This document shows, piece by piece, positions 6,535-33,949 of a stretch of 39,463 bases of DNA. The stretch comes from Rathayibacter sp. VKM Ac-2754. Its GTDB lineage: Bacteria; Actinomycetota; Actinomycetes; Actinomycetales; Microbacteriaceae. Below the pieces are notes generated by a model that ran no database searches, was not told where the DNA came from, and was given only the letters and a program-made list of their open reading frames with translations. Position 1 is the first letter of the stretch. The number at the start of each line of letters is the position of its first letter. The stretch lies in assembly GCF_009807095.1 (NCBI RefSeq), contig NZ_WUCC01000017.1, forward strand, positions 1 through 39,463, given 5' to 3'. Both the position numbers and the translations under genes were made by a program.

Positions 6535-7146
6535 ATGACGCCATCCCCCGCCACGGGATCACGCGGGGGCATCGCCGCCCTCCGGATCGTCGTCGCCCTG
6601 ACCGTGCTCACCGCCGTCGCCGCAACGGCCGTCGACACGGCGTCGCGCACTCCGTTGCTCCCGTTCAACTTCTTCGGCTTCTTCACCATCCAGGGCAACA
6701 TCCTGCTGGCGGTGATCCTGCTGACGACCGCCCTGACCGGCCGGAGCCTCGCCCTCGCCCGCGGTGCGGCCACGAGCTACATCGTCGTCGTCGGCCTCGT
6801 CTACAACACGCTGCTCGTGGGCCTCGCCGGCGGAGTCGCACTCCCCTGGGCGAACACGGTCATGCACCTGCTCTTCCCGATCTACGGACTGCTCGACTGG
6901 ATCCTGTTCGCCGATCGCCCGCCGCTGCCCTGGCGCCGGCTCCCGCTCGTGATCGTGTACCCGCTCGTCTGGCTCGCCGTGGTTCTCGTGCGCGGGGCGA
7001 CGGACGGCTGGGTGCCGTACCCGTTCCTCGATCCCGCGACCGGGTACGGCACCGTCGCGGTGTACGTCGTCGTGATCGCGGTCGTCTTCCTCCTCGCGGG
7101 CGCGCTGGTCTGGGCGCTCAGCCGGGTGCGGCTGCTCCGGATCTGA
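6535..7146 (+). CDS. Pr6Pr-family integral membrane protein
   Basis: A 203-residue polytopic membrane protein with about six hydrophobic segments. The first is near residues 12-35. The family signature F-N-F-F-G-F-F-T-I-Q-G-N lies at about 45-57. Later segments carry P-W-A-N-T-V-M-H and P-I-Y-G-L-L-D-W-I-L-F, and the last hydrophobic segment ends in W-A-L-S-R-V-R. This pattern matches the actinobacterial Pr6Pr family, whose function is unknown. ATG 6535 is chosen because of the promoter hexamer six bases upstream and because the open frame further upstream is antisense to the DUF429 gene. A GGGGCCCC repeat follows the stop. Confidence 0.82.
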   Translation: MTPSPATGSRGGIAALRIVVALTVLTAVAATAVDTASRTPLLPFNFFGFFTIQGNILLAVILLTTALTGRSLALARGAATSYIVVVGLVYNTLLVGLAGGVALPWANTVMHLLFPIYGLLDWILFADRPPLPWRRLPLVIVYPLVWLAVVLVRGATDGWVPYPFLDPATGYGTVAVYVVVIAVVFLLAGALVWALSRVRLLRI

Positions 7147-7147
7147 C

Positions 7148-7179
7148 GGGGCCCCGTTCTGGGGCCCCGTTCTGGGGCC
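7148..7179 (+). repeat. GGGGCCCCGTTCT tandem repeat / hairpin
   Basis: Two exact 13-bp copies (7148-7160 and 7161-7173) plus the first six bases of a third begin one base after the Pr6Pr stop codon. Each unit contains the palindrome GGGGCCCC, so the RNA can form GGGGCCCC-loop-GGGGCCCC. It probably acts as the transcription terminator. Confidence 0.6.
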
Positions 7180-7267
7180 ACGCGTGCAGGTCCGCTCGAG
7201 AACGGGCTCCCCTAGCGTCGGCAGCGGCGGCCCCCACCGCCGACCCCCGACCGAGAGCGGTTCCCCC

Positions 7268-8173
7268 ATGCGTCTCCCCCTGTCCCCCTCACCGCGCCGC
7301 TCCGGGAGTCGCCGCCTGCGCGCCCTCGCGACCGGCGCCGCCATCGCCCTCGCCGCGGCACTGGTCCCCACCGGTGCCGCGTCCGCCGCGACCCCGACCC
7401 TCTCGCTGCTGAGCCTCGGCGACTCCATCACCCAGGCGTACGGCACCTGCGGCCGCTTCGCCGACTGCCCGCGCAACAACTGGTCGACCGGCACCAACGC
7501 GACCGTGAACTCCTTCGCATCGCGCCTGCGCACCGCGAACCCCGGCACCACGGTCACCACCGCCAACTTCGCGCAGACCGGCAGCCTCGTCGCCGGGGTC
7601 CCGGCCCGCATCGACGCCGCCGTCGCCGCAGGAGTCCGCCCCGACGTCGTCACCCTCCTGATCGGAGGCAACGACCTCTGCGCCGCCGACAACCCCGTCG
7701 CCGCCGACGGCTACACGATGACCCCCGCAGCCGCCTTCGACACCGGTGCGACCGCTGCGATCACCAAGATCCGCAGCACCTGGCCGAACGCCAAGATCGT
7801 GCTCTCCTCGATGCCGAACGTCGCCGCGGAGTGGGCCGTCGTCAAGGGCGGCATCGGATCCGTGGTCTGGGCCTCGGGCAACCTCTGCCGCACGACCCGC
7901 GGAGTGAACGCCACCGGCGGCCGCCTCAGCACCGCCGCGGCCGCCGCTTCGGCCACTGCCGCGAAGACCCGCACCACGCAGTACAACAGCGCGCTGCAGA
8001 AGGCCTGCGCCACCGCCGGCACGCTCTGCGACTACGACGGAGGCGCGCTCACCGCGACTCCGGTCACGAAGGCCCTGATCGGCACCGTCGACTACTTCCA
8101 CCCCAGCATCGCCGGGCAGGCCAAGATCGCCTCGGTGCAGTGGAGCGCATCGAACTTCGCCACGACCCGCTGA
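7268..8173 (+). CDS. secreted SGNH/GDSL hydrolase
   Basis: A 301-residue exported esterase-like enzyme. Residues 1-40 form a long Sec-type signal peptide (arginine-rich start, hydrophobic core L-A-T-G-A-A-I-A-L-A-A-A-L, cleavage after A-S-A). Block I is S-L-G-D-S-I-T-Q with nucleophile Ser53. Block III is L-I-G-G-N-D. Block V is D-Y-F-H-P-S with Asp275 and His278. The gap between these blocks contains several cysteines that may form disulfides, as in secreted actinomycete SGNH lipases and esterases. Substrate (lipid, acetylated polysaccharide or other ester) cannot be told. TAGCGT at 7213-7218 is a plausible -10 and gives a leader of about 45 bases. ATG 7268 is chosen as the start because the signal peptide begins there. 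Confidence 0.85.
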   Translation: MRLPLSPSPRRSGSRRLRALATGAAIALAAALVPTGAASAATPTLSLLSLGDSITQAYGTCGRFADCPRNNWSTGTNATVNSFASRLRTANPGTTVTTANFAQTGSLVAGVPARIDAAVAAGVRPDVVTLLIGGNDLCAADNPVAADGYTMTPAAAFDTGATAAITKIRSTWPNAKIVLSSMPNVAAEWAVVKGGIGSVVWASGNLCRTTRGVNATGGRLSTAAAAASATAAKTRTTQYNSALQKACATAGTLCDYDGGALTATPVTKALIGTVDYFHPSIAGQAKIASVQWSASNFATTR

Positions 8174-8207
8174 GCGACGGACCGCCGGCGGGTCGGCTGT
8201 CCCCGGG

Positions 8208-8591
8208 TCAGGCGTCCTGAGGACGCTCGCCCTCCCGTCGGCGCCGCTGCTCCTCGGCGAGCCGCGCGTAGTGCGCCTCCTCGCGCTCGAGGTCGGCGAG
8301 CTGCTCCTCGGTGCTCTTGGGAGCCGGCCGCATCACGATCGTCGGCGGCGGGGTCTTCGATCGCCGCACCCGCGTCGTCCGCCCGCCGGGCACGAAGGAG
8401 GCGCCGTCGCCCTTCTTCCAGTCGTGGCCGAGGACGAACCACAGCGTCACGCCGATCAGCGGGATGAACACGATCAGCAGGATCCAGACGATCTTCGGCA
8501 GATTCCGGACCACGTTGTCCGGCTGACGCACGACATCCACCAGCGCCAGCACCATCAGCACGACGGTCAGCAGCGAGAACAGGAAACCCAT
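8208..8591 (-). CDS. PLDc_N-domain membrane protein
   Basis: 127 residues with the PLDc_N architecture. One membrane helix spans about 2-20 (F-L-F-S-L-L-T-V-V-L-M-V-L-A-L-V). After the polar loop R-Q-P-D-N-V-V-R-N-L-P comes a second helix around 34-54 (W-I-L-L-I-V-F-I-P-L-I-G-V-T-L-W-F), then the conserved G-H-D-W. The charged C-terminal half (E-E-Q-L-A-D-L-E-R-E-E-A-H-Y-A-R-L-A-E-E) is likely a cytoplasmic coiled coil. Family function is unknown despite the name. TACCCT (8599-8604) lies seven bases before ATG 8591, suggesting a leaderless promoter of its own although the MazG-like gene ends only 28 bases upstream. Confidence 0.82.
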   Translation of the reverse strand: MGFLFSLLTVVLMVLALVDVVRQPDNVVRNLPKIVWILLIVFIPLIGVTLWFVLGHDWKKGDGASFVPGGRTTRVRRSKTPPPTIVMRPAPKSTEEQLADLEREEAHYARLAEEQRRRREGERPQDA

Positions 8592-8619
8592 GCGTTCGAG
8601 GGTACGGCGCTGAGCGACC

Positions 8620-8955
8620 TCACAGGGCCGACTCGTGCCCCGGACGCGTCGAGCGGTCGACCCGCATCACGACTCCGTCCGAGAAAGCGCCCCGCTCGAG
8701 CGCCTTCCTCCTCCGTGCGTCCTCGACCGCTTCCCACCGGACCTCGAGCTGAGCGGCCAGCGCGTGAAGCACCTCGAGCACATCGGCGATCTCCTCCTGA
8801 GACGGTCCGGCGACCACCTCGGCGCATTCCTCCTCGAGCTTCGCGAGCAACCACGGGAGGCGCTCCGCGGCCGGGACACGGCGGAAGCCCGCCGTGACTC
8901 CGAGCCTGTCGAGGACCTCCGGGATGCGGTCCCGCACGAGCTTCTCGCGAGTCAC
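8620..8955 (-). CDS. MazG-like nucleotide pyrophosphohydrolase
   Basis: A 111-residue all-alpha protein of the MazG/phosphoribosyl-ATP pyrophosphohydrolase-like superfamily, expected to hydrolyse a nucleoside triphosphate to the monophosphate with Mg2+. It opens with K-L-V-R-D-R-I-P, the signature of the short subgroup. It then has the metal-binding L-E-E-E-C-A-E and, one helix later, E-E-I-A-D-V-L-E. It ends with a conserved R-K-A-L-E-R-G-A-F region. The GTG start at 8955 overlaps the stop of the glycosyltransferase gene as GTGA (8955-8952), so it is coupled to that operon. A longer frame upstream is out of step with the glycosyltransferase gene and is rejected. A house-cleaning or nucleotide-sugar-related role is inference from context. 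Confidence 0.8.
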   Translation of the reverse strand: MTREKLVRDRIPEVLDRLGVTAGFRRVPAAERLPWLLAKLEEECAEVVAGPSQEEIADVLEVLHALAAQLEVRWEAVEDARRRKALERGAFSDGVVMRVDRSTRPGHESAL

Positions 8956-10073
8956 GAGAGCGCCGCGACGAGATCGACCGGACTCGCCACGCCGTCCGCG
9001 GAGGCGGTACCAGCGCTGCGCAGGCCGTCGACGGCCTCGCGGACGTCGCCCCAGGAGGGCCTCTGCCCCGTCCGGTCGACGGAGGGACCCCACTCCGAGC
9101 CCTTCCGCGTCGGGGAGTGCAGCACTGCACCCCACCCGAGGCTCCGGGCCCGCTCACCGTTGGAGAGCCTCTCCGGGTTGAGTCCCGGGAGAACGACCGC
9201 GGGGAGGGTCGAGGCCAGGCAGGTCGTCGTGATCCCGTGGCCGCCGTGATGCACGACGGCGCGGAGTGAGGGGCCCAGCCCCTCGAGATCCCAGAACGAG
9301 GCCACCCGGACACCGATCGGCGGGTCGCCGATCTCCGACACCAGCGCTGGGTCGCCGGTGGCGATGTAGATCGTGCCCGGCCAGTTGCCGAAAGCAGCGA
9401 CGAAGTCTCCGTCGATCCGCCCCACCGTCCGATAGAAGAGGAGGTCGTCGCCTCCCGACGAGGAGCAGACGCTCGTGAGCGCTCCGGTGTACACGATATC
9501 GAGGCCGTCGGTCCGCTCCGGGAGGGGATCCCACTCCGGTGAGCTGGGGACGGCGATACGGCCGAGACCGAACAGCTCGCGCACGTCCTCGCCGACGAGG
9601 GGAAGTCCGCGCCGGCGCAGCTCGTCGTTCACGCTGAGAGCCGGAGTCGTCCAGATGTCGGCGAGAGGAGTGTCGGGGAATCGGTAGTCGGGCAGTTGAT
9701 TGTCCTGACAGAGCGTGACGATCGGGATCCGGAGCTCACTGCAGCTGATGAGCATGGACAGTCGATTGTCGTTGACGACTCGATCGGGACCCACCTCCTC
9801 CAGGACGGACCGATCGAACTCGAGCGCACTGGAGAGGAAGGACGGATCGGCCCAGTTCGTCCACGGATCGGACGCATCCGCGGCAGGGGGGTACCTGATC
9901 TCCGCATCGAGGCCGGCGTCCGCTGCGAGCCGGGAGTGGAGCAGCACGTCATGCCCGAGGAGAGTGCAGTGCCAGCCCGCATCCCGGAAGGCCCTCCCGA
10001 TCGCCAGCAGCCTCGTGATGTGGCCGTTGCCGCGGCCCCAGGACACGAGCAGCAGTCTGGACTGCCTCAGCAC
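8952..10073 (-). CDS. GT-B fold glycosyltransferase (GT1/MGT-like)
   Basis: A 373-residue enzyme with two Rossmann-like halves. The N-terminus has the acceptor-side signature W-G-R-G-N-G-H-I-T-R-L-L-A-I-G-R-A-F. The C-terminal donor site reads V-V-H-H-G-G-H-G-I-T-T-T-C-L-A-S, then L-P-A-V-V-L-P and N-G-E-R-A-R-S-L-G-W-G. These are features of GT1/GT28-type transferases that use NDP-sugars on small-molecule or lipid acceptors. The GTG start at 10073 overlaps the end of the HIT gene by seven bases, and the stop overlaps the MazG-like start. All four leftward genes therefore form a tightly coupled operon. A/T-ending codons are more frequent than in the flanking genes. Donor and acceptor are unknown. 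Confidence 0.8.
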   Translation of the reverse strand: MLRQSRLLLVSWGRGNGHITRLLAIGRAFRDAGWHCTLLGHDVLLHSRLAADAGLDAEIRYPPAADASDPWTNWADPSFLSSALEFDRSVLEEVGPDRVVNDNRLSMLISCSELRIPIVTLCQDNQLPDYRFPDTPLADIWTTPALSVNDELRRRGLPLVGEDVRELFGLGRIAVPSSPEWDPLPERTDGLDIVYTGALTSVCSSSGGDDLLFYRTVGRIDGDFVAAFGNWPGTIYIATGDPALVSEIGDPPIGVRVASFWDLEGLGPSLRAVVHHGGHGITTTCLASTLPAVVLPGLNPERLSNGERARSLGWGAVLHSPTRKGSEWGPSVDRTGQRPSWGDVREAVDGLRSAGTASADGVASPVDLVAALS

Positions 10074-10720
10074 GACGTCGCGATCGTCAGACCGTCCACG
10101 AGTTCGAGGACGATCTCATGGGATCGGGGGGCGGCTTCTGCCGCATCTGAGTTCGAGAGAACGGTCTCCCAGTCCGCGAGTTCGGGAGTCGACCTCGCCT
10201 CGGCGATCACCGTCCGGAGATAGTGAGGCGGAAGGGAATGACTCACCGGGTAGAAGACGAGAGGGGCGGAGCCGCCACCCACCACGGCGTATCCATCGGC
10301 CTGGGACCCGAGGTCGATGACGTCCGTCCAAGACGAGAGGACGACCGACTGCCCGAGTGCGGCCAGCGTCCGGAGATCGAGCGCACCGGGAATGAGGTGC
10401 ACGTGCATGTGGTGGCACATCCTCTCGCCGGGTCGGCTGCGGAGGCAGTGCCCCGTCCGACCGTGCTCGAAGAGCACGACGTCTCCGAAGGCGCTCCGGA
10501 TCCTCGTGCTCAGAGCCTCTACGAGCAGATCGAGTGTCGCGGCCGATTCGACCCCGATGTAAGCAGCCGATGGGTGGTGCTCGGTGGTGTAGACGAGCAG
10601 ATGTCCGGGGCTCAGCGGAGCCGGATCGGAGCAGACGGCGAGCCCCCGGCTCTCCCACACCTTTCGAGGATTGCTTCGGCAGAAGACGCACTCCGGGTCT
10701 GCGAGCACCGACACTGTCAC
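10067..10720 (-). CDS. HIT-superfamily protein with C-terminal extension
   Basis: 217 residues. The first 115 carry HIT-family marks: C-V-F-C near the N-terminus (zinc-type pair), S-P-G-H-L-L-V-Y-T-T-E-H-H, and the histidine triad in C-H-H-M-H-V-H-L-I-P. HIT proteins are nucleotidyl hydrolases or transferases acting on a nucleotidyl phosphate through a histidine intermediate. The remaining roughly 100 residues (from about D-V-I-D-L-G) do not match anything I know. GTG 10720 overlaps the stop of the aminotransferase gene as GTGA, with GGAAGGA about eight bases upstream. In an operon with a glycosyltransferase it may activate a sugar or nucleotide precursor. Scavenging of a nucleotide by-product is an equally open possibility. 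Confidence 0.75.
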   Translation of the reverse strand: MTVSVLADPECVFCRSNPRKVWESRGLAVCSDPAPLSPGHLLVYTTEHHPSAAYIGVESAATLDLLVEALSTRIRSAFGDVVLFEHGRTGHCLRSRPGERMCHHMHVHLIPGALDLRTLAALGQSVVLSSWTDVIDLGSQADGYAVVGGGSAPLVFYPVSHSLPPHYLRTVIAEARSTPELADWETVLSNSDAAEAAPRSHEIVLELVDGLTIATSC

Positions 10721-11871
10721 GACATCCTTCCTGCAACGCTGGCACTCAGCTCGCGGATCGCCGCGATCGTCGCGTCCAGCTCGGATCGGGTGGTTCGTGA
10801 GCCGAGACTGACCCGGACCGTTCCCCCGGCGCTCGACCCGATCGTCCGGTGAGCAAGAGGGGCGCAGTGCAACCCTGAGCGAACGAGGATGTCGAAGCGT
10901 TCCTCGAGGACTGCCGCTGCACTGCTGGGCTTCATCCCGTCGATGGTGAAGGACACGACTCCCACCGTCGGCGATCGCCGTCCGACTTCGACCGGTCGCA
11001 CTCCTTCCGAATCCCGCAGCTTCTGAGCGAAGTACTCCCGCAGCGCACCGTGGTGGACGGACCGATGTTCGATCTCGGCCTGGTCGAGCTCAGCCAGCGC
11101 TGCACCGAGACCGGCGATCCCTACACCGTTCAGGGTCCCCGCTTCCTGCGACCAGGGCAGCCAGCTCGGATGCTCGGGATTCTCGGAACGCCCGCCCGAG
11201 CCGCCTCTCACGAGGGGCGGCAACGAGACACCCTCGCCGATGACGGCGCCGCCGACACCCTGCGGGCCGCCTAGGCCCTTATGGCCGGCGAAGACCACGA
11301 CATCGGCGACGGCAGCATCGATGGGCAGATGGCCGAAGGCCTGGGCCGCATCCAGCGCGAGGAAGACCCCGTACTCCCGACACAGCGCAGAGATCTCGGT
11401 CACAGGGAGGACCTCTCCCGACACGTTCGATGCCCAGGTCATGAGGACGCCGGCCGTGTCTCCTCGCCGGAGCGCCCGTTCGAAGAGGTCGAGATCGACC
11501 GGACCGTCAGATGAGGAGGGAATCACCTCGTGCGTGATCCTCCCGGCCGCCTCCAGCGCAGCCAGGGGACGAGTCACGGAGTTGTGCTCGAACGCCGAGG
11601 TGAGGACCCTGCCGCCGATGAGCCCGAGATGGTTCGCGACGGAATTGAGGGACATCGTCGCGTTCAAGGAGAACGTCACTCGGTCCGGCTGACGACAGCC
11701 GACGAGGTTCGCGAGAGAGGTGCGGGTCGCCCAGACCTGCTCCTCGGCCCACGACGCGAGGCGATGCCCTGCCCTCCCGGGACTCGTGCCGCTCTCGAGG
11801 AAGCGCTCCATCGCCTCAGCGATGCTCGGGCTCTTCGGATAGGACGTGGCCGCCGAGTCGAGGTAGATCAT
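10717..11871 (-). CDS. class V aminotransferase / cysteine desulfurase-like enzyme
   Basis: A 384-residue fold-type I PLP enzyme. It begins I-Y-L-D-S-A-A-T-S-Y-P-K, as NifS/SufS/Csd-like proteins do. The PLP lysine is in F-A-G-H-K-G-L-G-G-P-Q-G-V-G, and the PLP-ring aspartate and glutamine are in L-D-A-A-Q-A-F-G-H. A cysteine in R-S-G-L-H-C-A-P-L-A-H stands where desulfurases carry their persulfide cysteine. It may supply sulfur or selenium, or may be a lyase or aminotransferase recruited to a biosynthetic pathway. No Fe-S or tRNA-thiolation partners are nearby. ATG 11871 is preferred to GTG 11880 because AAGGAG lies eight bases before the ATG and only one before the GTG. It is the first enzyme of the leftward operon. 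Confidence 0.8.
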   Translation of the reverse strand: MIYLDSAATSYPKSPSIAEAMERFLESGTSPGRAGHRLASWAEEQVWATRTSLANLVGCRQPDRVTFSLNATMSLNSVANHLGLIGGRVLTSAFEHNSVTRPLAALEAAGRITHEVIPSSSDGPVDLDLFERALRRGDTAGVLMTWASNVSGEVLPVTEISALCREYGVFLALDAAQAFGHLPIDAAVADVVVFAGHKGLGGPQGVGGAVIGEGVSLPPLVRGGSGGRSENPEHPSWLPWSQEAGTLNGVGIAGLGAALAELDQAEIEHRSVHHGALREYFAQKLRDSEGVRPVEVGRRSPTVGVVSFTIDGMKPSSAAAVLEERFDILVRSGLHCAPLAHRTIGSSAGGTVRVSLGSRTTRSELDATIAAIRELSASVAGRMS

Positions 11872-11888
11872 GGTCGACACTCCTTCAT
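11868..11888 (-). CDS. candidate 6-residue mini-ORF before the aminotransferase
   Basis: ATG 11888 opens a six-codon frame encoding MKECRP. Its TGA overlaps the aminotransferase start (ATGA, 11871-11868), and the aminotransferase ribosome binding site AAGGAG lies inside it. GGAG stands about ten bases upstream. TAGGTT on the minus strand near 11920-11925 could be the -10, which would make this nearly the start of the transcript. The same frame extends upstream to ATG 11969 (33 residues) if transcription begins earlier. It may be only a translational-coupling leader. Confidence 0.25.
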   Translation of the reverse strand: MKECRP

Positions 11889-12300
11889 GTCCAGGTTCTC
11901 CGGTGCGCTTTCCTGCGAGAACCTACGCCGACGAAGGCGGCCGACCGGCGCAGGCGCGAGATGCAGCATCGCCCAGAGGGCGCCGGACGACACGGTGTCG
12001 TCCTGGCGCGAATCGCGCCTTCGACTCCTGATCGGTGCGGGGGCTGCGGGCGGTCCGCGCCGTTCTGCGGCCGGCGGGAGCGCCCCGCCGAAGCCGAGCA
12101 CCTGTGCAGCTGGGTCGGACCGCTGCCGCCGGGCAGCCCAGGCCGGGCGCGAGTGCGGTGGCCGCTAACGTCTACTCCCGAGCCGGCGGGTCCGTGTCTC
12201 GCGAGCGGGCGAATCCCCGCGCGGCGATCGATCACGACCCGTCGTCGTGCATCCCTCGGGACTCGCCCAGGGGATCCCCCCCTCGTTCGAAGGAGAGCAG
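11889..12300. other. divergent intergenic/leader region of the biosynthetic block
   Basis: 412 bp between two divergent operons, with no convincing gene on either strand. On the plus strand TAACGT (12166-12171) is the best -10 candidate and gives a GC-rich leader of about 120 bases before the mini-ORF at 12301. The leader contains several G/C runs that could fold, for example around 12205-12222 and 12257-12281. A fragment at 12227-12244 resembles the left arm of the 1799 dyad (GATCGATC, then ACGACCCGTC) with a deletion. On the minus strand TAGGTT near 11920-11925 could serve the aminotransferase operon. Confidence 0.45.
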
Positions 12301-12354
12301 ATGGTCGGCAGCGCAACGCCCCTCGTCCCCGATCGGAGCGGCCGAGACCGATGA
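12301..12354 (+). CDS. 17-residue mini-ORF coupled to the glycosyltransferase
   Basis: ATG 12301 follows an excellent ribosome binding site, AAGGAG at 12289-12294, six bases away. It encodes MVGSATPLVPDRSGRDR, and its TGA overlaps the glycosyltransferase start (ATGA, 12351-12354). The glycosyltransferase itself has no separate strong ribosome binding site, so ribosomes probably arrive by translating this frame. The peptide has no cysteine, signal sequence or resemblance to anything I know. It could be a coupling leader, an attenuation peptide or a very short precursor peptide. Translation is well supported; function is not. Confidence 0.5.
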   Translation: MVGSATPLVPDRSGRDR

Positions 12355-13628
12355 CGGACGCACGATCGACGGTCACCGACGCGCCTCCGGACGTCTCCGT
12401 GATCATCCCGACGTTCGAGCGGGAGGACGAGCTCGAGCAGACCCTCGCCAGCCTCACCGAGCAGACGACATCGATGAGGTTCGAGATCGTCGTCGCGGAT
12501 GACGGGTCCGCAGGTGACACCGTGGCAGTGGTCCGAGGTTTCGAGTCGAGACTCGACCTCGTCTACACGAGGCAGAAGGACACCGGTTTCCGGCTCAGCG
12601 CAGCGAGGAACCTGGGCGCACGCGCCTCTCGCGGACGGACACTGATCTTCCTCGACTGCGGGACGCTCGCGGGACCGTCCCTCGTGGAGTCGCACGGGAG
12701 ACGAGTCGAGGCCGGGCGACGTGCCACGACCGGCCCCACCTTCGGCTGGGATCTGTCGGGTGCGGACGCCGTTCGCTTCCGGGAGATCGTCAGGGGCTCG
12801 GGCTGGCAGGAGCGGCACGAGCAGATGTCCGATCACCCGCTCCACCGCGACTACCGATCGGAGAAGTGGCTCGATGTCTTCGAGCGCCGAGTCCCCCTGG
12901 CGCTTCCCTGGAGGTTCTTCTGGGGTCGGAACATCGGAGTGGCCCGCTCCGACTACGACGCAGCCGGTGGGTTCGACGAGCGCTTCGCCAGCTACGGGGT
13001 CGAGGACGTCGAGTTCGGGTACCGCCTGCAGCGCCGAGGAGTGGAGCTCGGCTGGTCCGAGGACGCATGGGCGGTGGAGCTGCCGAGCATCTCGGAGGAC
13101 GCAGCGGCGCAGGCCGAGCAGAACCGCGCGAATCTCGCTCGATGGGCGGATCGCTGCACCGACCTGCAGATCGAGTTCTTCGTGTGCAACCGTCCGCTGC
13201 CGCAGCTCGAACAGCCCGAGTGGGAGCGAATCGAGCGCTGGTCGGCATCGGCGACGAACAGTCGCGACGATCTCGACGTCCTCCTCCGCGCCTCACGGAC
13301 GAGCGACTCGATGCTCTTCGTCGGGTCGATGGTGGGCGCGCCGCACTCCCGATCGGTCGTCACCCTCGGGCCCGGGTTCCCGATCGGGACTCTGAGCTGG
13401 GCGGACTGCCTGGAACGATCGACGCAGGAACCGGTCGATGTCAACGCGATCGGGATCCGCGCAGGGTTCGCCGACCGGTCGTTCGACACGGTCTACATCA
13501 GCGACGCGATGGCCCCGTTGGCAGCCACGTGGGGCGAGCACCTCCTCCGGACGGCACGCCGATGCGGACGCGGCGTTCAGCTCGGGCGTGCCTTCTCCGC
13601 CGCTCTGAGCGAATCGGGTGTCGTCTGA
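12351..13628 (+). CDS. GT-A glycosyltransferase (GT2 with GT7C-like motif)
   Basis: 425 residues. The N-terminal GT2 core begins V-S-V-I-I-P-T-F-E-R and has V-V-A-D-D-G-S. At the metal-binding DxD position it reads F-L-D-C-G-T, so the second aspartate is missing. The following segment F-F-W-G-R-N-I-G-V, then G-G-F-D-E and G-V-E-D-V-E-F-G-Y-R, is the galactosyltransferase-type GT7C motif that supplies the W-G-x-N and E-D residues. After about residue 270 comes a roughly 150-residue domain that I do not recognise. ATG 12351 overlaps the mini-ORF stop. Codon use is more A/T- and AGG-rich than in the housekeeping flanks. It is probably co-transcribed with the MFS exporter. Sugar and acceptor are unknown. 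Confidence 0.8.
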   Translation: MTDARSTVTDAPPDVSVIIPTFEREDELEQTLASLTEQTTSMRFEIVVADDGSAGDTVAVVRGFESRLDLVYTRQKDTGFRLSAARNLGARASRGRTLIFLDCGTLAGPSLVESHGRRVEAGRRATTGPTFGWDLSGADAVRFREIVRGSGWQERHEQMSDHPLHRDYRSEKWLDVFERRVPLALPWRFFWGRNIGVARSDYDAAGGFDERFASYGVEDVEFGYRLQRRGVELGWSEDAWAVELPSISEDAAAQAEQNRANLARWADRCTDLQIEFFVCNRPLPQLEQPEWERIERWSASATNSRDDLDVLLRASRTSDSMLFVGSMVGAPHSRSVVTLGPGFPIGTLSWADCLERSTQEPVDVNAIGIRAGFADRSFDTVYISDAMAPLAATWGEHLLRTARRCGRGVQLGRAFSAALSESGVV

Positions 13629-14794
13629 GGAGCCGGTCGAGCGCTGGACGGCGCCTGCCTCGCTCGGTCACCGGCGCGCTCGCGAGCAACGCGGTCTTCG
13701 GTGGGATCACCGCTGTCGGTCTGCCCGTCGCTCTCGACGCTGCCGGACTCTCGAAGGCCCAGATCGCCGTGTTCTTCGTGGTCAACGCCGGTCTTGCAGT
13801 CGCCTACAACACCGTCCTCGTTCCTCGCATCCGGGTGGCCGGGTATCCGAGACTCGCGCTTCTCGTGACGACGACCGCGGTGCCGGTCGGGGTCCTTTTC
13901 GTGCGGTTCAGCTCTGGCAGCGTCGGGATGCTCTACCTCGGAGGGGCGCTGATGCTGTTCGTCAGCACCGTCGTCCCCCAGCTCTTCGGTCGCGTCGCCT
14001 CGCAGAACGCCGGCCACGCGCAGGAGTGGATGGTCGCCCGATTGCGGACGGTTCTCATCTCCGGATACATCCTCGGGCTGGTCCTCTACTCGATGCTCGC
14101 GCAACTGGGCGTCGATCCGCTCGTGGCGGCGGCAGGTGCGGCAGGACTGACGATCGTCTGCACGGCCGGGCGCTCGTTCGCTCGTCGACTTCCCGTGCCG
14201 GATCGCCGTCCCGATGCCGCTGCCGCTGCCGGGGGCGATCCGCCTCCCCGGCGTCTGCTCTTCGTTCTCGCGCTGGCCCTGGTCGCTCTCCTCAAGTCGG
14301 TGGACACGCTGCGCGCGATCTACCTGCCGCTGTTCGCGGTCTCCTCCGGTGTTCCTCCCGCGCTGGTGTCACCGGTGTTCCTGGCCTCGGCGGTGCTCGA
14401 GCTCGCTGCGCTGCCCGCGCTCACGCGACTCAGCACTGCTCGCGGCAGCGCGTTCACTCTCGGGATCGTCTCACTGGCCGCGATCGTCACCTTCGCGATC
14501 CTCGTCGGCGACCAGTCCTACGGGGCACTGGTGCTGTCGCAAGCCGTCTACGCGGTCGTGGGCGCCGGTTTCCAGAGCATCGGAATCCTCCTGCTCGAGA
14601 GGACGAGCAACGGCGGTCCGGGCGCGGGGGCCAGCGCCTACACCGCGGTCACGCAGGTCGGGACGGTGCTGGGCGCGCTCCTGCCGCTCGCGGTGTCCGG
14701 GTACGATCCGCAGATCTTCCTGATCGCGGTCCTCCTATCCGCCGCGTCCGTGATGCTCGCGGTGGCCCTTCGGGTGAATGGCGGGCGGCTGTGA
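13562..14794 (+). CDS. MFS transporter, probable exporter
   Basis: About 410 residues with about 12 hydrophobic segments and a central cytoplasmic loop near residue 210 (R-R-L-P-V-P-D-R-R-P-D-A-A). The order and spacing resemble DHA1/sugar-efflux-type MFS proteins. The start is uncertain: ATG 13562 lies inside the end of the glycosyltransferase gene (67-base overlap) and gives an arginine-rich N-terminus before the first helix at V-T-G-A-L-A-S-N-A-V-F-G-G. No other ATG or GTG in frame comes early enough to keep helix 1. As the last gene of the rightward operon it is a natural candidate to export the product of the block. That role is inference. Confidence 0.75.
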   Translation: MRTRRSARACLLRRSERIGCRLRSRSSAGRRLPRSVTGALASNAVFGGITAVGLPVALDAAGLSKAQIAVFFVVNAGLAVAYNTVLVPRIRVAGYPRLALLVTTTAVPVGVLFVRFSSGSVGMLYLGGALMLFVSTVVPQLFGRVASQNAGHAQEWMVARLRTVLISGYILGLVLYSMLAQLGVDPLVAAAGAAGLTIVCTAGRSFARRLPVPDRRPDAAAAAGGDPPPRRLLFVLALALVALLKSVDTLRAIYLPLFAVSSGVPPALVSPVFLASAVLELAALPALTRLSTARGSAFTLGIVSLAAIVTFAILVGDQSYGALVLSQAVYAVVGAGFQSIGILLLERTSNGGPGAGASAYTAVTQVGTVLGALLPLAVSGYDPQIFLIAVLLSAASVMLAVALRVNGGRL

Positions 14795-14843
14795 CCTTGC
14801 TCGTCCGGGCAAGCGCAGGAGCGGTTCGTGACACGATCGGACG

Positions 14844-15254
14844 ATGACCGAGACCCCTGCGCGCGGCCTCCGTGAACCTCGCGACATCACGAAGCGCAGA
14901 CGCCTCACTCCGCGCCGCATCGCGCTGATCGCCGGCGCCGTCCTGCTGCTCGTCGGCCTGGCCCTCGTCGGCCTGGTCGCACTGCAGTACGGGAGCCTCG
15001 CCCAGCAGGGCTTCGACTCCGTGTGCTCCGCGAGCGTCGGCGGCGTCCCGCCCGGCGAGGGCACTCTCGTGGGCGGCTCCTGGTCGTGGTGGCCGCTCGG
15101 CGTCACCTGCGAGTGGCAGGCGCTCGACGGGTCGACGCTCCTCGAGCGGCCCGACTGGTCGACGACCGCGGTCGCGATCACCGGAGCGGGGATCCTGCTC
15201 ATCGGCCTGGTCACGCTGCTCTCGGCAGTGCTCCTGCGTCGCGCGAAGCACTGA
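14844..15254 (+). CDS. small two-helix membrane protein, hypothetical
   Basis: 136 residues. A basic N-terminus (T-K-R-R-R-L-T-P-R-R) precedes a membrane helix at about 27-50 (I-A-L-I-A-G-A-V-L-L-L-V-G-L-A-L). An extracytoplasmic loop of about 55 residues with two cysteines (S-V-C-S-A and V-T-C-E-W) probably carries a disulfide. A second helix at about 109-130 ends in L-R-R-A-K. No family is recognised. CACGAT lies six bases before ATG 14844, a possible leaderless -10. It is convergent with the gene ending at 15410 and is followed by a large inverted repeat. Confidence 0.65.
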   Translation: MTETPARGLREPRDITKRRRLTPRRIALIAGAVLLLVGLALVGLVALQYGSLAQQGFDSVCSASVGGVPPGEGTLVGGSWSWWPLGVTCEWQALDGSTLLERPDWSTTAVAITGAGILLIGLVTLLSAVLLRRAKH

Positions 15255-15308
15255 CTCGCGGCGTCGACCCGGCCGCCGTCCGATTCACGGTGTCCCGGAG
15301 CGGCCGAG

Positions 15309-15393
15309 GTGCGATCTGCAGGAGATCGACTCCGCAGGGTGCGATCCGCGCGGTAGAACAGCCCATCCGGCGACGATCTCCTGCAGACCGCAC
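15309..15393. repeat. 20-bp inverted repeat enclosing 45 bp
   Basis: GTGCGATCTGCAGGAGATCG (15309-15328) is complementary to 15374-15393 with a single mismatch. It lies between two convergent genes. The stem could act as a bidirectional terminator, but a 45-base loop is long, and the 85-bp size also fits a palindromic intergenic repeat or miniature element. A shorter G-T-G-C-G-A-T-C motif recurs in the loop at 15340-15347. Confidence 0.65.
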
Positions 15394-15409
15394 GACCCCC
15401 GTCGGCGAC

Positions 15410-16216
15410 TCAGCGGTCGAAGAGGTTCCCGATATCGCCGAGGCCCGGCATCTCGAAGTTCGAGCCGAAGTCCGACACCTGCTCGCCGAGCCCCGACACG
15501 TGCTCGCCGGCCCCGGACACGAAGTCGCCCGCCGCGCCGGTGATGTCGCCGAACTCGCCCAGGTCGCCGAAGCTCCCCGTCAGACCCTCCAGGTCGACAC
15601 CCTGCAGGAGCGGACCGGCGACGCTGCTGAGCACCGCGCCACCCGCGACCGCCGCGAGCAGTCCGCCCGCCGCGCCCAGACCGACGCCCGCCACCGCGCC
15701 GACGCCGGCACCCGCGAGGGCCCCGCGCGTCCCCGGCTTCGAGAACATCTTCTTCAGGAACCCCGGGTTCTGGGCCTCGCCGCGCGTCGCGGCCCGCGCC
15801 AGATCGTCGGGGTTCGACGAGCGCGGCTGCTCGTTCGCGGGCAGCTCCTCGCGCAGCCGCGCCTCGACCTGCGAGCGCTGCGCCGGCGTCAGCTTCGCGA
15901 ACGCGTCGCGGTGCACCTGCTCGAGCTGCTCGGGGTCGGCCGTGCGGAGGAGGTAGTCGTACCGCGCGATCGCGGCACGATCCTCCTGGGTCACGGCGGG
16001 CTGCCCCGGTCGCGCGTCCTGCGGACGGATCGGAGCGCGCGGCGCCGCGGAGGCGGGCGACTGCGACGGCCGGGCGTCGCCGGTCACCTTGTCGGCCGCG
16101 GTGCGCACCATGGCACGCCAGTCCGGGGTACCGCCGGTGGTGCCGCCGGTGCTCGACGACCCCTTCGAGTCGAGGGCCTTCGACGCCATGCCGAGGACGC
16201 GCTTGAACATGCTCAC
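15410..16216 (-). CDS. conserved hypothetical protein with glycine-rich C-terminus
   Basis: 268 residues. A Ser/Thr/Gly- and Pro-rich N-terminal linker spans about 1-75. A helical, charged region follows at about 77-150 (D-Y-L-L-R-T-A-D-P-E-Q-L-E-Q-V-H, L-T-P-A-Q-R-S-Q-V-E-A-R-L-R-E-E-L). Next is a Gly/Ala-rich hydrophobic stretch at about 163-203 (A-G-A-G-V-G-A-V-A-G-V-G-L-G-A-A-G-G) that could insert in a membrane. The C-terminal tail of G-D-L/G-E-F/G-D-I repeats ends L-F-D-R. Similar actinobacterial proteins exist, some named cation-transporting ATPase, but no ATPase motif is present here and I would not keep that name. GTG 16216 has GGAAGG six bases upstream. Confidence 0.7.
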   Translation of the reverse strand: MSMFKRVLGMASKALDSKGSSSTGGTTGGTPDWRAMVRTAADKVTGDARPSQSPASAAPRAPIRPQDARPGQPAVTQEDRAAIARYDYLLRTADPEQLEQVHRDAFAKLTPAQRSQVEARLREELPANEQPRSSNPDDLARAATRGEAQNPGFLKKMFSKPGTRGALAGAGVGAVAGVGLGAAGGLLAAVAGGAVLSSVAGPLLQGVDLEGLTGSFGDLGEFGDITGAAGDFVSGAGEHVSGLGEQVSDFGSNFEMPGLGDIGNLFDR

Positions 16217-16339
16217 AGAGAACCTTCCGTCGGGTATCAGCCTCGATCATCCCGACGCAGCCTGAGCAGAACCCGTCCGGAAGCCCTCCGATTGCTCGGA
16301 ACCGCCTCGTCGTGCACCTCCGAGTCCTCGACCTCCGGC

Positions 16340-16402
16340 GATCGATCCGTCGCGAACGGCTCCTCCGTAGCGCGTCGATGGCGCGTTCGTGCCGGATCGA
16401 TG
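16340..16402. repeat. 63-bp dyad element, second copy of the 1799 type
   Basis: 16340-16358 (GATCGATCCGTCGCGAACG) pairs with 16384-16402 with three mismatches in 19, spacer 25. The left arm matches 1800-1818 at 18 of 19 positions, while the spacers differ. Two unlinked intergenic dyads of almost equal size and shared arms suggest a dispersed repeat family or a common binding protein. Confidence 0.6.
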
Positions 16403-16424
16403 CGGCCGGCGACCACGCGATGTC

Positions 16425-16480
16425 CGGCTCGCAGGAACACGTTCGGCTCGCAGGAACTCCCGGTTTCCGCGAGCCGAACG
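16425..16480. promoter_or_regulatory. direct and inverted repeat cluster, candidate operator
   Basis: CGGCTCGCAGGAAC occurs at 16425-16438 and again at 16444-16457, a 19-base step. CGTTCGGCTCGC (16440-16451) is perfectly inverted at 16469-16480. The cluster lies about 110 bases upstream of the MFS efflux gene. The arrangement looks like several binding sites for one regulator; the convergent AraC protein at 17789-18658 is one candidate. Function is inferred only from the arrangement. Confidence 0.45.
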
Positions 16481-16587
16481 CAGTTCCGCGCGCCCGAGAT
16501 GCTCCAGAGCGCCCACCCCGGCCGATCGGTCGGATCCCGCGGCCGTCCGGTCGGGCGCCCGCCGCGCCACTCCGCCAGGCTGGACCC

Positions 16588-17784
16588 ATGCCCTCGACCG
16601 CGTCCGTCCCCGTCGTCCGCCCCGAGCCGACGACGGGGCGCCTCCCCTACATCCCCCTCATCACCCTGATGCTCCTGAGCTTCCTGCTCGTGACAGCCGA
16701 GTTCCTGCCGAACGGCGTCCTGACCGAGATGGCCGCCGGTCTCGACGTCACCCCCGGCCAGGCGGGCCAGACCGTCACCGTGACCGCGCTCGTCGGCCTC
16801 CTCGTCGCCCCGACGGTCGGCCTGATGTTCCCCCGGCTCGACCGCCGCACGCTCTTCATCTGGACGGCCGTCGCCGCCGGCGCCTCCAGCGTCTTCGCCG
16901 GCCTCGCCCCGAACCTCGCCCTGGTCCTGCTCTCGCGCCTCCTGCTCGGAGCCGCGATCAGCGCCTTCTGGTCGATGTCCCTCACCGTCGCCGCCCGCGT
17001 CGCCGGCCCCGACCGCGTCGGTCGCGCCACGATGTTCACCAGCGCCGGCCTCTCGCTCGCGACGGTCGCCGGGGTGCCGCTCGGCGTGATCCTCAGCGAG
17101 CTCATCGACTGGCGTGCCGCCTTCGTCCTGATCGGCGTCCTCACGGCGCTGCTCGCCGTCCCGCTCCGCCTCCTGCTGCCCAGCGTCCCCGCCGCCCCGG
17201 CCGCCGGGCTCGGCGTGCTCCTCGACACCGTGCGCCGCCGCGGAGTGCGCCAGGGCTTCGCGGGCCACATCCTCGTCGTCCTCGGCCACTTCCTCGCGTA
17301 CACCTACATCCGCCTGGCGCTCGAGCGCACCGAGGGCACCGATGCCGCGACCATCGTCGCTCTGCTGGCGCTCTTCGGCGTGGGCGGCCTCGCCGGCAAC
17401 ATCGTGATCGGCTCGGTGATCGACCGCTCCTTCGCCTTCTTCGGCGTCGTCGCACCGGTCGCGATCGCGATCGCCGTCGGAGCGGTCCTGCTGCTCCCCG
17501 GCTCCGTCCCGGCCATCGCGGTGGCGGTGGTCGTCTGGGGCTTCTTCTTCGCCTCCTGGCTGATCATCGTCAACGCGTGGGTCGGTCACCGGATGACCGA
17601 CCGCCTCGAGGCCGGCGGCAGCCTGGTCGTCGTCGGCTTCCAGGCCGCGATCGTGATCGCCGCCGGTGTCGGCGGAGTCCTGGTCGACGCGGTCGGAGTC
17701 GAGGCCGACTACGCGATCGGCGCGGGCCTGCTCCTCGTCGGCGCGGCCCTCTTCGGCGCGTCGAACCGCAGGCGCACGGCCTGA
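16588..17784 (+). CDS. MFS transporter, DHA1 efflux type
   Basis: 398 residues with about 12 hydrophobic segments. The first helix contains L-V-T-A-E-F-L-P-N-G-V-L, typical of the AraJ/NepI-like DHA1 branch. The loop 2-3 region is G-L-M-F-P-R-L-D-R-R-T-L-F. Helix 4 carries S-R-L-L-L-G-A-A-I-S-A-F-W-S, and helix 5 has G-L-S-L-A-T-V-A-G-V-P-L-G, the motif C (antiporter) region. These support proton-driven efflux of a sugar, nucleoside or drug. ATG 16588 begins the protein shortly before helix 1. The gene ends four bases from the convergent AraC gene and is preceded by a repeat-rich region that probably controls it. Confidence 0.85.
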   Translation: MPSTASVPVVRPEPTTGRLPYIPLITLMLLSFLLVTAEFLPNGVLTEMAAGLDVTPGQAGQTVTVTALVGLLVAPTVGLMFPRLDRRTLFIWTAVAAGASSVFAGLAPNLALVLLSRLLLGAAISAFWSMSLTVAARVAGPDRVGRATMFTSAGLSLATVAGVPLGVILSELIDWRAAFVLIGVLTALLAVPLRLLLPSVPAAPAAGLGVLLDTVRRRGVRQGFAGHILVVLGHFLAYTYIRLALERTEGTDAATIVALLALFGVGGLAGNIVIGSVIDRSFAFFGVVAPVAIAIAVGAVLLLPGSVPAIAVAVVVWGFFFASWLIIVNAWVGHRMTDRLEAGGSLVVVGFQAAIVIAAGVGGVLVDAVGVEADYAIGAGLLLVGAALFGASNRRRTA

Positions 17785-30987: not shown

Positions 30988-31569
30988 CTAGGTCGCTCTG
31001 TTCGCGATCCCGGGATACTCGATGACGAGCCCCGAGCCGTCGTACCTCAGGTCGCACGCGAAGTCGAACGTCGACGATTCGTAGTGGAACAGCAAGTGCC
31101 CCGAGCCGGCCTCGGTCAAGGTGTAACGCTGTTCGAGACGTTCGACACGGAGGTCGTCAGCTCGGACGAACGCCGCCGGCACGTCCACACCGACTCCCTC
31201 GACGAGATCGAGACGATGGAGGGGAAGCGTGTTCGTCACCGCGGACGACTCGAGATCGACATCCAGGCATCCATCGAGGTCGGGTCGCACCTCACCGTTC
31301 GCGGCCCACCGACCCGTGGAGTCGCGCGTCAGAATCAGTTCGCCCCTCCCGTCGACCGACAGGTTGACCACCTGCACCGCGACAGTCCTCCACGAACGAT
31401 CCACCGTCACGTCGTAGCCGACCGACCACAGTGCAGAGGACTCGTGCGCGGTCGTGTGACCGATCACACGATGTCCGGCACTCACCACCTCGAAGAAGGC
31501 GATCTCGAAACCGGCCCGTACTCCCCTGTGATCCCAGCTCGCCCCAGCAGGCAGTGCCGTCAGTCTCAT
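30988..31569 (-). CDS. putative glycolipid-binding domain protein
   Basis: 193 residues matching the glycolipid-binding family (PF06475 type), a single beta-rich domain. Recognisable family features are Y-D-V-T-V-D-R-S-W-R-T, R-D-S-T-G-R-W-A-A-N-G, then D-L-D-G-C-L-D-V-D-L and T-N-T-L-P-L-H-R-L, L-R-V-E-R-L-E-Q-R-Y, and near the end F-D-F-A-C-D-L-R-Y-D-G-S-G-L-V-I-E-Y-P-G. The family's biological role is poorly known. TAGGTT (minus strand, 31576-31581) lies exactly six bases before ATG 31569, so the transcript is probably leaderless. It is not obviously linked to the neighbouring operons. Confidence 0.82.
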   Translation of the reverse strand: MRLTALPAGASWDHRGVRAGFEIAFFEVVSAGHRVIGHTTAHESSALWSVGYDVTVDRSWRTVAVQVVNLSVDGRGELILTRDSTGRWAANGEVRPDLDGCLDVDLESSAVTNTLPLHRLDLVEGVGVDVPAAFVRADDLRVERLEQRYTLTEAGSGHLLFHYESSTFDFACDLRYDGSGLVIEYPGIANRAT

Positions 31570-32215
31570 GAACGGAACCTACAGGCACCTCGCCGAGGCC
31601 AAGAACCTCGAACCACGACATGAAGCGCCCTGAGGACGCAGCCGCAAGACGCCGCGGTCGACAGCGCGCAGCGCTCTTCGCTCCTCGAGCGATGCAGTGC
31701 ACCTCCCCAGGGGGACGCGCGAACTCTCATCAGGTCAATGCGATCGGCACTGGTGGCGGTCAGGACAGGAGTCAACAGGGGTGAGGAGGCGGAACCGGCC
31801 GCTCCTCCAGTCGGTGTGCAGACCATCCGTCAGCGCCAGGTGCGGCTGTCCGACGAGCAGAAGGCCAAGCGCCGACAGCTCGACAGCCGGCGCACGCAGC
31901 GGAGCTGAAGACCCAAGGCTGGTGACTGAATCAGCTAGGCGCGCAGCACGGCGTCGATCCGAAGACGATGAAAGCGAGACTTCAGGCGCGGCCCGAGAAC
32001 CGGAGCAGACCTGGGTGCGCGCTTAAAGGGGGGTATCCCCATCCGCGGCCGATCAGGGTCGAGTAGGTCACACTGAGCGCGTCGAGCGTTGCGCACCTCA
32101 CGCCGGTCGACCGAGTCGTGCCTGTGGTGCGCGGCTCGGATGCCGGCCCGCCTCGCCCGACGGCGGCCGTCGCACCTCCGATCCCTCGCCGACCCGAACG
32201 CCCTGGAGCACACTC
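31570..32215. other. gene-poor stretch with possible relic frame
   Basis: 646 bp without a convincing intact gene and with less G/C bias than its surroundings. The plus-strand frame through 31681-31906 stays open and ends with a basic stretch (Q-R-Q-V-R-L-S-D-E-Q-K-A-K-R-R-Q-L-D-S-R-R-T, stop at about 31908). It has no good start and may be the remnant of a DNA-binding or recombinase-like protein. GGGGTATCCCC at 32030-32040 is a short palindrome. The last 150 bases are the leader of the exported-protein gene, with GGAG shortly before its ATG. Confidence 0.4.
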
Positions 32216-33874: not shown

Positions 33875-33949
33875 TGGTGCCCCTGGAGGGACTCGAACCC
33901 CCAACCTGCTCCTTAGGACGGAGTCGCTCTTCCATTGAGCTACAGAGGC
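33875..33949 (-). tRNA. tRNA-Arg (anticodon CCU)
   Basis: Read on the minus strand, a complete 72-base cloverleaf plus encoded CCA. The acceptor stem is GCCTCTG/CAGGGGC with one G-U pair. The D arm is GCTC/GAGC. The anticodon loop is GTCCTAA with CCT at 34-36, which reads AGG. The T arm GGGGG-TTCGAGT-CCCTC has one G-U pair. The first pair of the anticodon stem (A-C) is mismatched and the other four pair. The 3' end faces the HprK-like gene and the gene-poor stretch, a common orientation for integration sites, but no second attachment site is visible. Confidence 0.95.

Follow-up and report, generated by a model that had tools for sequence, protein, structure and literature searches.

The 6-thioguanine operon, tgs in Staphylococcus chromogenes and ycf in Erwinia, is reported to encode a SufS-like cysteine desulfurase, proteins of the nucleotide-hydrolase type and a membrane efflux protein, and its product is a sulfur-bearing nucleobase antimetabolite (PMC7994395). 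The paulomycin (pau) cluster is reported to combine a cysteine desulfurase, Pau31, with several glycosyltransferases to make an actinobacterial glycosylated product, and a cysteine origin has been proposed for its sulfur (PMC4425429). Enzymes of the HIT family are reported to cleave the phosphoramide bond of processed microcin C (PMC7157772) and to split nucleoside thio- or selenophosphates, freeing H2S or H2Se (PMC8775712). Here we describe a block of six genes at positions 8620-14794 of a 39,463 nucleotide stretch of DNA from Rathayibacter sp. VKM Ac-2754 (contig NZ_WUCC01000017.1), referred to below as the window, in which an apparent cysteine desulfurase adjoins a HIT protein resembling the spliceosomal protein CWF19. 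The block is real, rare, accessory and biosynthetic-looking, it is centred on two enzymes that recur together, and defining parts of the known systems that we tested are missing from it.

The six intact open reading frames (ORFs) form two divergent sets, as a sequence-only reading of this DNA had claimed, separated by 470 bp (11881-12350). Leftward run a class V pyridoxal phosphate (PLP) enzyme, the HIT protein, a GT-B glycosyltransferase and a MazG-like protein, with overlaps of 4, 7 and 4 nt between adjoining genes. Rightward run a GT-A glycosyltransferase and a major facilitator superfamily (MFS) protein, whose reading frames also overlap, the MFS start being either ATG 13562 or CTG 13625. 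A scan of positions 8500-15000 for sigma-70-type promoters gave no matches. The weaker G/C codon bias noted in the same reading was borne out: GC content at third codon positions (GC3) is 0.78-0.87 in the block (MazG 0.866, GT-B 0.853, HIT 0.784, PLP enzyme 0.799, GT-A 0.845, MFS 0.836) against 0.91-0.94 in the genes on both sides (0.927 and 0.922 to the left; 0.912, 0.937 and 0.919 to the right). Equally low values occur in some other ORFs of the window, which were picked mechanically and a few of which are perhaps in the wrong frame. The PLP enzyme, GT-A and the C-terminal domain of GT-B match Pfam models above cut-off. HIT falls below its cut-off, and for MazG and MFS a Pfam search at E 0.1 returned nothing; the identities of these three proteins rest on their relatives.

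Its conserved residues make the PLP enzyme (10717-11880, minus strand) look more like a cysteine desulfurase than an aminotransferase. The class V fold previously assigned to it stands (Aminotran_5, 223 bits), whereas the aminotransferase label gives way to the residues of a SufS-type desulfurase. Cysteine desulfurases are marked by the PLP lysine in an HK pair, an upstream EH, a DxxQ motif, the catalytic cysteine (R.GL.CAP in the SufS type) and a C-terminal arginine. In window numbering H99, D177, Q180, H200, K201, C339 and R356 are invariant in all five HIT-linked desulfurases that we aligned, and among solved structures the 21 relatives at E 1e-30 carry the names cysteine desulfurase, SufS, CsdB or selenocysteine lyase. 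The enzyme cannot be filed under the corresponding NCBIfam models because it scores under each cut-off, the nearest being TIGR01977 (336.6 against 377), followed by SclA (268.9 against 525) and SufS (178.4 against 475.1). Two subtypes of desulfurase occur beside CWF19-like HIT proteins, one resembling SufS and TIGR01977 (the window, Actinoplanes, Lactococcus) and one resembling NifS, IscS and DndA (Rhizobium, Streptomyces), and the aligned members of both retain the PLP lysine and the catalytic cysteine. As both adjoin the same kind of HIT protein with these residues kept, sulfur release, not transamination, is likely to be their shared property, and the earlier guess of sulfur chemistry appears to have been a good one.

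By sequence and predicted fold, the HIT protein (10067-10720, minus strand, 217 aa) belongs to a bacterial branch that resembles CWF19 from end to end. Searched against solved structures, a profile built from seven members of the family found an ordinary HIT protein first (1y23, E 5.9e-12, positions 7-114) and CWF19L1 second (E 7.8e-12), and CWF19-like chains alone aligned over nearly the whole length (9-201). An AlphaFold2 model built from five sequences had a mean predicted local distance difference test score (pLDDT) of 83.5. Its six top Foldseek matches were chains from spliceosome structures, three of them named CWF19L1/L2 in the profile search, and the best was 8ro1_L1 (E 2.7e-8, 202 columns, TM 0.64 by query length). 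The catalytic triad is intact (HMHVH). The three HIT proteins beside SufS-type desulfurases share the motifs [FY]EHGR.G.C and P.E..C.H.H.H, giving a pair of cysteines, C92 and C102 in the window, and 12 of the 13 CWF19-like family members listed have a cysteine shortly ahead of the triad. HIT enzymes act through a nucleotidyl-histidine intermediate; to our knowledge, the biochemical role of the eukaryotic, spliceosomal CWF19 members is poorly understood.

To examine the neighbourhoods of these genes, we compared 17 loci encoding CWF19-like HIT proteins (the window included) with 30 encoding ordinary ones, split by match length. Short-flank duplicates (L027-L032, L063, L010/L025) were excluded from the tally; the CWF19-like group includes a borderline member, L060, which scores 55 bits without a clear triad, and two ordinary HIT proteins score 53-55. 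Using profiles trained on members of the CWF19-like group, we found a desulfurase within 1.5 kb at 7/17 of these loci (the window, L011, L020, L021, L023, L062 and L024, in which the copies are broken) and at 0/30 of the ordinary ones (Fisher p 3e-4). After near-duplicates were merged the counts were 5/13 and 0/30 (p 0.0013). MazG, sought with a profile trained in the same way, was present at 7/17 CWF19-like loci (the window, L020, L021, L022, L061, L064, L065) and 0/30 ordinary ones, a less fair comparison than that for the desulfurase because the ordinary loci mostly carry flanks of at most 1.5 kb and most of the others 5-9 kb; in L020 and L021 it lies 3 kb away. Six of the 17 have neither gene.

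The relatives of the pair sit in varied surroundings. In Actinoplanes rectilineatus the adjacent desulfurase and HIT genes (50% and 38% identity) lie inside a nonribosomal peptide synthetase (NRPS) cluster, together with an NRPS carrying a methyltransferase domain, a radical-SAM-like protein (by eye), a protein of the AIR-synthase family nearest to thiL, a DUF1839 protein and a relative of amino acid:carrier-protein ligases (326.5 bits against 357). On the Lactococcus lactis plasmid pUC06C the intact, adjacent pair is followed by an EamA-like transporter (26.5 bits, cut-off 28.2); on a second Lactococcus plasmid, pUCCL635A (L024 6412-7643), the pair is broken and stands beside an insertion sequence element. 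Rhizobium pRL1 carries genes for a phosphoribosyl pyrophosphate (PRPP) synthase-like protein, a thymidylate-kinase-like protein, the adjacent desulfurase and HIT, and a TrpD-type transferase. Two circular Streptomyces plasmids (L020, L021) encode MazG, a dCTP-deaminase-like (DCD-like) protein, HIT, a protein of 313-314 aa without assigned function and the desulfurase, the last one gene away from HIT. The run on NBC_01278 lies near an annotated phage portal protein and is possibly phage-plasmid cargo. DCD, thymidylate-kinase, PRPP-synthase-like and NUDIX neighbours occur at some of the related loci. Separately, two actinobacterial genera carry NUDIX, kinase-like and CWF19-like HIT genes in a row (L058 7164-10053, where the kinase is cytidylate-kinase-like, and L059 7125-10324), followed by an ORF that by eye resembles a terpenoid-type enzyme. 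Another cluster, conserved in two genomes (L056 and L057), contains by eye an AMP-ligase-like protein, the CWF19-like HIT, another ORF of ligase type, ORFs resembling oxidoreductases and a protein resembling radical-SAM enzymes.

Such proteins are rare in the collections searched. The HIT query matched 2/299 genomes of the family (our own and Microbacterium sp. K24) and 7/396 of the phylum including our own, the other six being ordinary HIT proteins. The HIT profile matched 108/296 genomes of the class, mostly ordinary HIT proteins by score and length; besides the window and K24, six class genomes reached at least 55 bits over most of the length. A three-sequence HIT alignment run against 84,980 species genomes returned six loci, among them one desulfurase-HIT pair (Actinoplanes, L062) and two ordinary HIT proteins (L066, L067). 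That scan depends on exact matches to short patterns, so most distant members escape it, and the rarity figures are samples, no census. GT-A matched 2/299 family genomes at E 1e-30 and the MFS profile 3/296 class genomes at E 1e-25, our own included in both. Two scans of viral contigs found no relatives, two HIT queries found no match in phages, and word searches of the open-licence literature found no description of this gene set or of a bacterial CWF19-like HIT with a cysteine desulfurase. The co-occurrence that the sequence-only reading proposed to search for holds in part: desulfurase and HIT, and HIT and MazG, are neighbours in several genomes, and GT-A and MFS in one more, rather than being scattered housekeeping orthologues, whereas the full set was found in no other genome searched.

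We favour, tentatively, the view that the island makes an exported, glycosylated compound, probably nucleotide-related and containing cysteine-derived sulfur, through a nucleotide-linked intermediate. In such a pathway the PLP enzyme would free the sulfur of cysteine as a persulfide on C339, as its conserved residues suggest. The HIT protein would bind a nucleoside phosphate and, following the chemistry of its family, form a histidine-nucleoside monophosphate intermediate, the nucleotidyl group being either passed to the sulfur acceptor or removed afterwards. The MazG-like protein may hydrolyse a nucleoside triphosphate, either a substrate or a by-product; GT-B and GT-A, assigned by family, would each add one sugar, and the MFS protein would export the product. 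The sulfur-nucleotide step, in either direction, is an economical guess made because a dedicated desulfurase adjoins the HIT gene. A nucleotide-linked step agrees with the presence of MazG and with the nucleotide genes around the relatives, and two glycosyltransferases and a transporter agree with a finished, exported glycoside. The likeness of the GT-B C-terminal domain to natural-product enzymes, the biosynthetic-looking surroundings of the two GT-A relatives inspected and the recurrence of GT-A with MFS beside nucleotide genes in a second genus, all detailed below, also count in its favour. Several observations weigh against this view. None of the six proteins was found to contain a domain for carrying sulfur, for ATP-dependent sulfur transfer or for building a scaffold, so the sulfur acceptor must come from outside the block. 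There is no desulfurase at 10/17 CWF19-like loci, and the complete six-gene set was found only in the window among all collections searched. The closest solved relative of GT-A, chondroitin synthase, would equally suit a glycan. The GT-A and MFS pair rests on one other genome (G268), in whose stretch (L099) HIT, desulfurase and MazG were not found; two MFS relatives (G778, G823) have no adjoining GT-A, and none of the other five genes was matched around them. The MFS gene also stands alone at the locus in three relatives. The earlier suggestion of a glycosylated small molecule or peptide is thus partly supported: a block making a glycosylated, exported compound remains the best reading, although its gene set was found nowhere else in the collections searched.

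A doubtful but more general proposal is that the CWF19-like HIT and the desulfurase form a portable two-enzyme sulfur module, recruited by unrelated clusters in several phyla. The persulfide would be passed to the HIT protein, perhaps to its cysteines near the triad, where a phosphorus-sulfur linkage would be made or broken, and here the module would feed a glycosylated thio-compound.

The glycosyltransferases bear on a further explanation, unlikely though credible, in which the block serves to make a cell-surface glycan or to decorate the wall: the two glycosyltransferases would build or cap a glycan, MFS would move a precursor, and the PLP enzyme, HIT and MazG would be accessory. Besides the chondroitin synthase match of GT-A (12351-13628, plus strand, 425 aa, family GT2), several polysaccharide GT2 models match it below their cut-offs, and GT-B (8952-10073, minus strand, 373 aa) is weakly similar to the MJ1255 family. 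However, the C-terminal donor domain of GT-B (PF06722, 35 bits against a cut-off of 31.7; relatives 3wad, SsfS6 and CalG3) is nearer to natural-product enzymes of the EryCIII/CalG type, and none of the block proteins could be recognised as a flippase, a polymerase or a lipid-carrier transferase. The Lactococcus and Rhizobium desulfurase-HIT loci also lack any BLAST match to either glycosyltransferase. No relative was found for the N-terminal half of GT-B: 13/296 class genomes match it, our own included, and the 12 others align beyond residue 177 only; folded as a single sequence it reached a pLDDT of 35. GT-A has relatives in 143 matching plasmid records, and the two inspected, with which its C-terminal extension aligns, sit in biosynthetic-looking Streptomyces clusters. 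In one of these plasmids (L018) the GT-A relative precedes an annotated MFS gene without BLAST match to the window MFS. The surrounding run (7009-17237, Streptomyces sp. BB1-1-1 plasmid) has annotated GTP cyclohydrolase II, oxidoreductase, the GT-A relative, MFS, a second glycosyltransferase, DsbA, aminotransferase and thymidine phosphorylase, and appears to be a nucleoside-type cluster.

The block is an accessory island. With 14 kb of DNA as the query we searched 15 genomes of the same genus, our own among them, and examined the locus in 12 of the remaining 14; G946 and G947, in which no matching pair of flanks appeared, were omitted. The six-gene block was present at the orthologous locus in 0/12. 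In G263, G944 and G949 its flanks (the window to ~8615 and from ~14826) lie 155, 168 and 795 bp apart. An intact MFS gene stands alone at the locus in G045, G943 and G945 (69-71% protein and 74-75% DNA identity), a broken one in G171 and a 16-residue scrap in G116. A MazG remnant in G949 (L077 2048-2212, 58% identity over residues 31-85) matches the window MazG in side and strand, and six of the 12 loci had no match to any of the six proteins. Across the 15 whole genomes MazG was found in two (the window and the G949 remnant) and HIT and GT-B only in our own; the PLP enzyme matched 11 of the 14 others, all desulfurases at 32-37% identity, and GT-A had no match at E 1e-30 in the five of the 14 within the family sample. 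What remains in one relative or another is a gene from either edge of the block, which would fit a block that once stood at this site and was lost piecemeal. The lone MFS copies have GC3 of 0.95-0.96, and from its lower value the window copy may instead have arrived separately and later, or been exchanged. Elsewhere in the window, whose GC content is 0.65-0.76 per kilobase in a genome of 3.97 Mb, the lowest-GC kilobase (31001-32000, 0.65) lies ~2 kb from a tRNA-Arg (CCT) gene (33875-33949) and is a possible second accessory site.

This variability could also mean that there is no functional unit, only independent accessory genes gathered at an insertion hotspot, an explanation we regard as unlikely. 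It gains from the lone MFS copies in 3/12 relatives, with their different GC3, and from the uniqueness of the whole set. The overlapping reading frames, the shared codon bias and the recurrent desulfurase-HIT, HIT-MazG and GT-A-MFS neighbourhoods speak against it, and edge genes (MazG in G949; MFS in G045, G943 and G945) are the leftovers expected from decay of a whole block. The MFS-like gene (13562-14794, plus strand; 11 hydrophobic segments counted from 13625) has apparently lost its original start, because intact relatives begin six residues before the CTG 13625 position, and the query had no match among plasmids. We first suspected an unrelated resident, as it stands alone in three relatives, and set this aside because its codon bias matches the rest of the block, GT-A and MFS recur together in G268 and the leftovers are the two edge genes; the gene is probably part of the block, although two other MFS relatives stand without GT-A. 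In G268, a second genus of the family, the GT-A relative is followed by an overlapping MFS gene 30% identical to that of the window. They belong to a nucleoside-like, same-strand, overlapping run (L099 5105-13588) of two DCD-like proteins, a methyltransferase, a protein whose cytidine-deaminase domain is accompanied by a weak kinase-like match at the N terminus, NUDIX, an NAGPA-like (phosphodiester-glycosidase-like) protein, GT-A, MFS and a dehydrogenase, with a serine recombinase upstream.

It seems rather unlikely that the block is a nucleotide-based defence, blocking phage with sulfur- or sugar-modified nucleotides or DNA. The patchy distribution and repeated loss at one site would suit defence, as would the PADLOC SspA and DndA models that match the PLP enzyme, and in Microbacterium K24 a type III restriction system lies next to a related HIT-MazG operon. 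However, one would not expect a defence system of this kind to include an exporter, and PADLOC found no matches in the other five block proteins, nor in the HIT, two-transmembrane and long MazG proteins of the corresponding Agreia operon. The window MazG-like protein (8620-8955, minus strand, 111 aa), a putative nucleotide pyrophosphohydrolase at the left island edge, is 42% identical to proteins of Streptomyces plasmids annotated as nucleoside triphosphate pyrophosphohydrolase. The three-gene operon itself is kept in Microbacterium sp. K24 (L061/L063), Agreia sp. PsM10 (L064) and a Planctomycetota metagenome-assembled genome (L065), and encodes a CWF19-like HIT, a membrane protein, which in L064 has two hydrophobic segments, and a protein of 811-846 aa. 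The last has a C-terminal MazG stretch and an N-terminal part that by eye resembles the ATP-binding region of phosphoenolpyruvate synthase (Pfam gave no match for that of L064). It is possibly an undescribed nucleotide-acting system.

A 17-codon ORF (12301-12354, plus strand) with a GGAG-like ribosome site has a stop that overlaps the GT-A start (ATGA) and is possibly a translational-coupling leader. That it is instead the very short precursor of a glycosylated ribosomal peptide is highly improbable: HIT hydrolases are reported to confer immunity in microcin C-type systems (PMC7157772), but the ORF has no cysteine, and the searches of the six proteins revealed neither an adenylating nor a protease nor a radical-SAM domain.

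The preferred reading, an exported glycoside with cysteine-derived sulfur, can now be set beside the described systems. By sequence, the block has a putative desulfurase and a candidate efflux protein, kinds of protein also encoded by the 6-thioguanine operon; in place of its TtuA-type sulfurtransferase, of which no domain was found in the six proteins, and of its NUDIX protein, likewise not found, it has a CWF19-like HIT, MazG and two glycosyltransferases, and we rejected membership. In DNA phosphorothioation DndA and SspA act with the partners DndB-E and SspBCD. A Dnd/Ssp system was rejected as well, since TIGR03235 (dndA) gives the PLP enzyme 117 against 480 and PADLOC is silent on the other five proteins. 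For sulfamate formation in nucleocidin and ascamycin a review reports that a sulfotransferase using 3'-phosphoadenosine 5'-phosphosulfate has been proposed (PMC9113183), and for that reason this route was dropped. The likeness to microcin C is that its operon also holds a HIT hydrolase, MccH, in a nucleotide-antibiotic setting (PMC7157772). However, no ThiF-type (MccB-like) adenylyltransferase domain was found in the six proteins, the sole precursor candidate is the ORF of 17 aa, and the CWF19-like HIT travels with a cysteine desulfurase; the MccH sequence itself was not compared. The paulomycin cluster has glycosyltransferases and, as the block appears to have, a desulfurase, but it differs in spanning 61 kb and in having the MoeZ/ThiF-like Pau30 and scaffold genes, and a word search of its text found no mention of HIT (PMC4425429).

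If our reading is correct, the block opens a sulfur-bearing, glycosylated metabolite of unknown class to genetic study, together with a bacterial branch of a family, CWF19, that in eukaryotes belongs to the spliceosome. The desulfurase-HIT neighbourhood recurs across Actinomycetota, Bacillota and Pseudomonadota, and it would bear on whether HIT proteins can handle sulfur-nucleotide chemistry in biosynthesis, beyond hydrolysis alone. CWF19L1 and CWF19L2 of the lariat spliceosome resemble the window HIT protein in whole-length profile and Foldseek matches that take in the C-terminal region, whereas the window protein is free-standing and bacterial, with an intact HxHxH, and its relatives lie in operons of nucleotide and sulfur enzymes.

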